Notes under the pieces: model-generated
Told to the model about the DNA's origin: nothing
Database searches by the model: none
Seen by the model: the letters and a program-made list of their open reading frames with translations, nothing else
Program-made: the position numbers and the translations under genes
Source of the DNA: Sphaerisporangium sp.
GTDB lineage: Bacteria; Actinomycetota; Actinomycetes; Streptosporangiales; Streptosporangiaceae
Direction of reading: 5' to 3'
Assembly (NCBI GenBank): GCA_025964675.1
Contig: JAOPYI010000177.1
Span: 1 to 64,000 of the forward strand
Length of the DNA: 64,000 nt
Shown: positions 8,255 to 9,809 of the stretch, in pieces
Position numbering within the stretch: position 1 is the first letter of the stretch
Layout of the letters: the number at the start of each line of letters is the position of its first letter

Positions 8255-8345
8255 TGTCGGCGCCGCCGTTTCGCCGACATCACCTGGGTCATCGGCGCCG
8301 CCCTCCACTACGATGTGGGCGGTCGGAGACGAGGGGAACCGAACC

Positions 8346-9809
8346 GTGAGATTTCTGAGCGATGTGACAGTGGAGCTGGTCAGGCACAGTGCGGCCGACT
8401 CCGATGTGGTGTGGGCCGCGCGGGTCTCCACGGCGGGGGAGCAGTCGCTGGAGGCGGTGAACCAGGACCCGGAGCGCTCCAAGGGCCTGATCAACTACCT
8501 CATGCGCGACCGGCACGGCAGCCCGTTCGAGCACAACTCGATGACCTTCTTCATCAACGCCCCCATCATGGTGTTCCGCGAATTCCACCGGCACAGGGTG
8601 GGATGGTGCCTGCCTGGGGACGCGCGGATTCCCGTGGGAACGCTGAAGAACGGCGTGAACAAGAAGATCAAAGACATCTATGCCGACTGGCATGAGGGAG
8701 TCCGCGACTCCATGGGGCGGGTCCGTAAAATGCCCTCGTGCCGCAATCTCAGCACGCGAACGGTGAATCTCGACACCGGCCTCATCGAGTGGACCCGCAT
8801 GGTCGACGTCTTCAAGAGTGGTGTCAAGCCGATCTTGAAGATCACCACGGTCAACGGCAAGGTCCTTCGTTGTTCGCCGGAACATGCGATCTTGTCGCGA
8901 GGCGCGTGGGTCAAGGCGAAAGATCTCGTCCCCGGAGACCTTGTCTCCGTCCAGGCGACGGTGCCGGTGGGGGAGTTCACCGGCGTGCCCCGGCGGCTGC
9001 GAGAGGGCATTCAGTTCTGGACTACACGGATGAAGCCGCAGATCGTCGGCGCGATCGACGTATGCCACGTCTGCGGAGGTGTCTTCGACTTCGGCGATCT
9101 CGAAGTGGACCATATCGTGCCCGTGAGCAGGCAGCTCAAACTGGCCTTGGACGAGGACAACCTCGCTCCCATCTGCGCTTCGTGCCACGAGATCAAATCC
9201 GGCAGGGAGGCGTGGGAGGTGGAACGGCGGCCGTCCAGGCTCGGCATCCGCGACGAAAAGGTCTCGTCGGTCGTCTCGGACGGCGAAGAGGAGACCTACG
9301 ACCTCTCCATGCCAGGCCCGTGGCATAACTTCATCGCCGACGGCATCGTGGTTCACAATTCCTACAACGAGGAAAGCGGGAGATATCGCGAGCTTCAGCC
9401 CGTTTTCTACGTGCCGGGGCGGTCGCGCAAGCTCGTACAGGAGGGCAAGCCGGGTCGCTACCAGTTCACCGAGGGCGACGACGAGCAGCACAAGCTGGTG
9501 GCCGAGACGATGGAGCACTCCTACCAGCGGTCCTACGACGCCTACCAGGAGATGCTCGAGGCCGGGGTCGCCAGGGAGGTGGCGCGGGCGGTCCTGCCCG
9601 TCGGCCTGTTCTCCTCGATGTACGCCACGTGCAACGCCCGCTCGCTGATGCACTTCCTGTCCCTGCGCATCAAGGACGACCGTGCGGCCGTGCCGTCGTT
9701 CCCGCAGCGCGAGATCGAGATGGTCGGCGAGAAGATGGAGGCGATCTGGGCCGGGCTGATGCCGCTCACCCACGCCGCCTTCAACGCCGCCGGCCGCGTC
9801 GCACCCTAG
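8346..9809 (+). CDS. thyX: FAD-dependent thymidylate synthase ThyX precursor containing an intein
   Basis: ThyX motif RHRVGW|SYNEESGRY split by an in-frame intein; GTG start in frame at 8346. Confidence 0.93.
   Translation: MRFLSDVTVELVRHSAADSDVVWAARVSTAGEQSLEAVNQDPERSKGLINYLMRDRHGSPFEHNSMTFFINAPIMVFREFHRHRVGWCLPGDARIPVGTLKNGVNKKIKDIYADWHEGVRDSMGRVRKMPSCRNLSTRTVNLDTGLIEWTRMVDVFKSGVKPILKITTVNGKVLRCSPEHAILSRGAWVKAKDLVPGDLVSVQATVPVGEFTGVPRRLREGIQFWTTRMKPQIVGAIDVCHVCGGVFDFGDLEVDHIVPVSRQLKLALDEDNLAPICASCHEIKSGREAWEVERRPSRLGIRDEKVSSVVSDGEEETYDLSMPGPWHNFIADGIVVHNSYNEESGRYRELQPVFYVPGRSRKLVQEGKPGRYQFTEGDDEQHKLVAETMEHSYQRSYDAYQEMLEAGVAREVARAVLPVGLFSSMYATCNARSLMHFLSLRIKDDRAAVPSFPQREIEMVGEKMEAIWAGLMPLTHAAFNAAGRVAP
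8607..9359 (+). mobile_element. Intein (251 aa) with HNH endonuclease domain inside ThyX
   Basis: Cys1 block CLPGDARI, block B SPEHAIL, HNH core CHVCGG...VDHIVPVSRQ...NLAPICASCHEIKSGRE, C-terminal VVHN followed by Ser+1. Confidence 0.93.

Follow-up and report, generated by a model that had tools for sequence, protein, structure and literature searches.

An open frame on the plus strand of the window (the whole stretch of 64,000 nucleotides analysed here, from Sphaerisporangium sp.) runs from an ATG at 8313 to a stop at 9809 (498 aa), and reads without interruption through the first part of the thymidylate synthase ThyX, an insert, and the remainder of ThyX. What is this insert, and how would the cell obtain a working enzyme from a gene split within its signature motif? 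The GTG at 8346, preceded by GAGGGG, is the likelier start of ThyX as judged by eye, and gives a precursor of about 487 aa. The Thy1 profile of Pfam matches this product twice, first over profile positions 1-79 and then over 81-190, and the intein and HNH matches fall between the two. As argued below, the insert is very probably a functional and mobile class 1 intein, of the type designated TdS-a group 1, lodged in the sole thymidylate synthase gene native to this Sphaerisporangium sp. (Table 1).

Table 1. Features of the interrupted thyX gene, in coordinates of the window.
Feature	Position	Strand	Evidence
ThyX N-extein	8346..8606	+	Thy1 positions 1-79; alignable to empty congeners; C-terminal end FREFHRHRVGW
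Class 1 intein, 251 aa, CLPGD...VVHN	8607..9359	+	PF14890; TIGR01445/TIGR01443; seven empty congeners; fold matches
Cys1, predicted first nucleophile	8607..8609	+	Unchanged across 15 related inteins
Block B SPEH (intein residues 90-93), variant of TxxH	8874..8885	+	His93 unchanged across 15 inteins
Region missing from the S. album mini-intein (residues 134-212)	9006..9242	+	Protein alignments with L043 and L008
HNH endonuclease domain, CxxC...DHIVP...N...CxxCH	9063..9200	+	PF01844, E=1.2e-11; residue conservation; dN/dS
Blocks F and G, TYDLSMPGPWHNFIADGIVVHN, penultimate His and terminal Asn251	9294..9359	+	Unchanged residues; TIGR01443
ThyX C-extein, including stop codon	9360..9809	+	Thy1 positions 81-190; begins with Ser+1 (SYNEESGRYREL)

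The insert comprises 753 bases (251 residues) between RHRVGW and SYNEESGRY, begins with CLPGD and ends with VVHN, immediately followed by a serine. It matches the intein splicing profile PF14890 (Intein_splicing, E=3.9e-13) in a Pfam search, and the NCBIfam models intein_Nterm and intein_Cterm (TIGR01445 and TIGR01443) both score over their cut-offs in the ThyX of the window. The leading PDB matches to its predicted fold are all inteins (best E=1.7e-9), the model being of moderate confidence (pLDDT 68) and having served for fold class only; together with PF14890, these matches point to the HINT fold that characterizes class 1 inteins. Across 15 aligned inteins, Cys1, the histidine of block B (H93), the histidine of block F and the C-terminal pair H250-N251 are all invariant, and Ser+1 is found in the window and its relatives. 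Full-length relatives retain the CxxC, DHIVP, Asn and CxxCH elements of the HNH domain, save for a few isolated substitutions beyond the core of the motif. The ThyX intein yielded no match to a LAGLIDADG domain. Third-position GC is lower in the intein than in the extein (GC3 0.82 vs 0.93). An earlier note on this DNA had described a class 1 intein that carries an HNH module and interrupts the signature motif of ThyX, with Cys1, a block B SPEH, a C-terminal VVHN, Ser+1 and no LAGLIDADG domain; each of these features holds, and profiles, fold matches, empty sites and purifying selection agree on the nature of the element. An unrelated in-frame domain misread as an intein was considered, and is ruled out by the profiles, the fold matches and the empty sites.

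The site is empty in most of the genus. ThyX lacks the insert in 7/11 Sphaerisporangium genomes, in which the proteins read RHRVGWSYNEES(G/A)RY and RHRVGW is directly followed by SYNEES(G/A)RY. Since these seven congeners present an empty site with matching flanking peptide, the boundaries 8607-9359, as given in the earlier note, are exact. The motif had there been written RHRxxSxNExSxRY; the insert does split it, but three residues (VGW), not two, separate RHR from the first serine, a spacing common to the empty congeners and to phage relatives, and therefore not an effect of the intein. The ThyX of one empty congener aligns over its whole length to a solved ThyX structure (4p5a, E=1e-80). 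Because the FAD and dUMP sites of ThyX are lined by the RHR segment and by the Ser and Arg residues that come after it, the interrupted precursor should be inactive before splicing, its active site not being formed.

The interrupted thyX would be translated as a single precursor of about 487 aa, in which Cys1 would undergo an N-to-S acyl shift, with transfer of the N-extein to Ser+1. Cyclisation of Asn251 would then release ThyX with its signature motif rebuilt. The HNH endonuclease presumably cleaves thyX alleles devoid of the intein, at the identical point, which leads to the copying of the intein into them. The element has very probably passed between related bacteria and, on a longer time scale, between bacteria and phages. 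Whereas the presence of the intein, its boundaries, its conservation, its patchy distribution and its kinship to phage inteins are observed, the splicing chemistry, the endonuclease activity and the dependence of the cell on splicing are deduced.

The other carriers bear on the dependence on splicing. Seven other genomes (G001, G005, G206, G208, G223, G311 and G470) contain an interrupted ThyX with no other match to ThyX or ThyA. A draft genome may lack a gene by incompleteness, but the interrupted ThyX is the only synthase found in all seven, so splicing very probably works there, and we strongly infer, as had been proposed, that the ThyX of carriers depends on it. G009 possesses a second, uninterrupted ThyX. 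The genome of the window has one ThyX and one complete ThyA, the latter on a contig of 3170 bases (L004, G000:C269:1-3170) with the gene order thyA-DUF4424-GNAT-DHFR. This thyA differs in composition from the window (GC 0.59 vs 0.71; GC3 0.78 vs 0.93), the entry of the plasmid collection closest to its product is 73.5% identical, rhizobial records being among the top matches, and no comparable ThyA was found in ten congeners apart from one weak match in G004. The contig probably entered the assembly as a contaminant from a proteobacterium. The earlier note had named an intact second thyX or thyA as the finding that would make this copy dispensable and decayed; such a thyA is present in the assembly, but its foreign-looking contig means that the objection probably does not apply. 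A decaying locus, whose thymidylate would be supplied by this complete thyA, is hence very improbable: the frame is intact, extein and intein are both under purifying selection, and the thyA is foreign in look and without an equivalent in the congeners. As for a dispensable, decayed copy of thyX, that candidate was rejected on selection and because other synthases are missing from congeners.

The distribution of the intein is patchy. Within the genus, full inteins occur in 3/11 genomes (the window, G005 and G009), the copies of G005 and G009 being 88-91% identical to that of the window, and a mini-intein occurs in 1/11 (S. album, G001). The latter (L008:1777-2292 / L043:3001-3516) is 172 aa long, 79 residues including the whole HNH having gone in frame; its splicing residues are intact and its host gene is the sole thymidylate synthase gene found in the genome. 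The G001 intein is identical to that of a named S. album record. Beyond the genus, G211 carries an intein 85% identical to that of the window, and the same intein is found in Planomonospora sp. ID82291 (L042). Matches to the intein were found in 11/343 genomes of a family survey, five of the 11 carrying a second lineage, hereafter clade B; the additional full-length carriers (n=10) comprise three of the window lineage and seven of clade B. The second thyX of G003 (L026, G003:C21 near 86980-87307), considered as a possible carrier, proved to be a decayed thyX fragment without intein. In G228, a broken intein/HNH fragment (L040, G228:C7:105028-105447) related to residues 110-249 lies antisense beside a divergent ThyX, and looks like the relic of a replaced, intein-bearing thyX.

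The intein was also compared with its host gene. In the extein DNA tree, the five genomes with the window lineage fail to group as one clade (AU p=0.0037), and a clade of the Sphaerisporangium carriers alone is likewise rejected. The nearest extein to that of the window belongs to the empty G006 (93% identity, dS 0.18); the exteins of G009, whose site is occupied, and of G004, whose site is empty, are set apart by 11/702 bases (dS 0.06), and G210 and G211, which belong to one genus, contain different inteins at the identical ThyX point. The history of the intein is thus in conflict with the host gene tree, and its patchy distribution points, on sequence comparison, to a mobile element; precise loss would, however, leave the same pattern as gain by homing. 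In the comparisons for which it could be computed, dN/dS is 0.02-0.07 for the HNH part and 0.04-0.11 for the splicing part, which indicates purifying selection on both; the extein is under purifying selection as well. Synonymous divergence is greater in the intein than in the extein, and therefore the carriers show no very recent sweep. A co-conversion tract, a possible sign of recent homing, was looked for around the ThyX insertion site and none was seen.

These last results lend some credit to a resident intein, which would still splice while its endonuclease would no longer be mobile, and which would be kept because its removal would damage an essential active site. The insertion in the essential signature motif, the wide synonymous separation of intein copies, the persistence of an HNH-less mini-intein in S. 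album and the missing co-conversion tract are all compatible with such immobility. Nevertheless, the constraint on the HNH part is as strong as that on the splicing part, all metal-binding and catalytic-type HNH residues are retained, and presence varies among close relatives, so that we regard the loss of mobility as rather unlikely, though deserving of some weight. Considerably less probable is a regulatory switch, in which splicing would respond to a cellular condition and gate thymidylate synthesis. The position in the active-site motif and the fact that ThyX is the only synthase found in several carriers would suit it, but homing into conserved DNA predicts the same position, the intein is absent from most close relatives, and no evident sensing element, for instance a cysteine of the extein close to the junction, is seen. 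The use of the window intein as a conditional-splicing reporter, put forward in the earlier note, is at this stage speculation. A functional and mobile intein remains the preferred reading.

Phage relatives place this intein in a wider context. A tblastn search against phage records returned 20 records, of which 14 are mycobacteriophage entries matching over the full length at 54-56% identity, with ThyX or HNH endonuclease as their annotation; both entries that were inspected belong to Bixzunavirus. ZygoTaiga and Gizmo are among the matches (H12-H14), at 54% identity to the window intein. Phages Colt and Norm have their intein between RHRSGF and SYNEESGRY, an insertion point identical to that of the window, and further ThyX inteins from viruses are found at this point or close to it within the signature motif. 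The search of genome collections for the insertion point that had been called for found it occupied in some relatives as well as in phages. In a tree of inteins built without two long-branch viral rows, the window lineage groups with Bixzunavirus (Colt and Norm) with support 100/98 (90/89 when these rows are included), and clade B groups with other viral inteins, also at 100/98. A single clade of bacterial inteins is rejected (p=6e-7). Separately, the IMG/VR contigs L056 and L059 encode viral ThyX that appears to contain two inteins: the larger precedes TPFEH/TPFES, and the HNH intein sits at the SYNEES/SINEWS point.

Clade B inteins occupy the same ThyX site, are 303 aa long and HNH-bearing, and share about 42% identity with the window intein. 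Their carriers are G206, G208, G210, G223, G311, G470 and G627; of these, G470 and G627 come from a different family within the class, and their inteins, equal in length and position to the others, are of the clade B type. Clade B inteins contain an extra AP2-like DNA-binding domain near intein residue 37 (L035:1240-2148; relatives L036-L039, L107 and L108), the match to PF00847 having E=1.7e-5 in L035 and 0.008 in L036, the latter below Pfam's cut-off.

Both the phenomenon and the intein group are already published: two clades of ThyX (TdS-a) inteins share one insertion point in Streptomyces and its near relatives, one clade is closer to the inteins of the phages Gizmo and ZygoTaiga than to its bacterial counterpart, and the incongruence of the exteins led to the inference of horizontal transfer (Kelley et al., 2016; PMC5050341). 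The window element fits TdS-a group 1 by every feature tested, the Streptomyces members of that group being known here by description. With the group 1 inteins of Bixzunavirus (cluster C1) phages, such as Gizmo and ZygoTaiga, it shares extein, insertion point, class 1 residues and HNH, and aligns over its full length at 54-56% identity; with those of Streptomyces, as described in print, it shares the ThyX extein. It differs from the described group 1 in its Streptosporangiaceae host and in having one congener without the HNH part. Clade B is probably TdS-a group 2 of Kelley et al. (2016); taken as such, group 2 has the same site and overall plan with HNH as the window intein, from which it differs by its roughly 42% identity, its length of 303 aa and its added AP2-like domain. 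The Ter ThyX intein of Trichodesmium, by its published description, likewise resides in ThyX, in a cyanobacterial host, and as a mini-intein splices to about 100% in E. coli (PMC3620165). Kelley et al. (2016; PMC5050341) do not use the word Streptosporangiaceae in their main text, and in the limited open-access literature searched we found no description of a natural HNH-deleted form, of the AP2-like domain or of Streptosporangiaceae inteins.

This element adds the Streptosporangiaceae to the known hosts of ThyX TdS-a inteins; in this family, one genus presents empty, full HNH and HNH-deleted states at a single site, and other genera of the family present a second lineage. It is possible, and we suggest it tentatively, that the ThyX site in this family is a live contest between two HNH intein lineages, one of them with an AP2-like domain, involving repeated invasion, mutual replacement, decay to mini-inteins and exchange with phages, with splicing essential for thymidylate. 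Such a natural series is well suited to testing how inteins are gained and lost, and how they home between bacteria and phages. Moreover, in several carriers no thymidylate synthase other than ThyX was found, so that thymidine auxotrophy offers a simple growth read-out of splicing. Finally, the genome of the window contains a second intein, bearing LAGLIDADG, in a ribonucleotide reductase (L025:673-3150, G000:C2), which like ThyX is an enzyme of DNA precursor synthesis.
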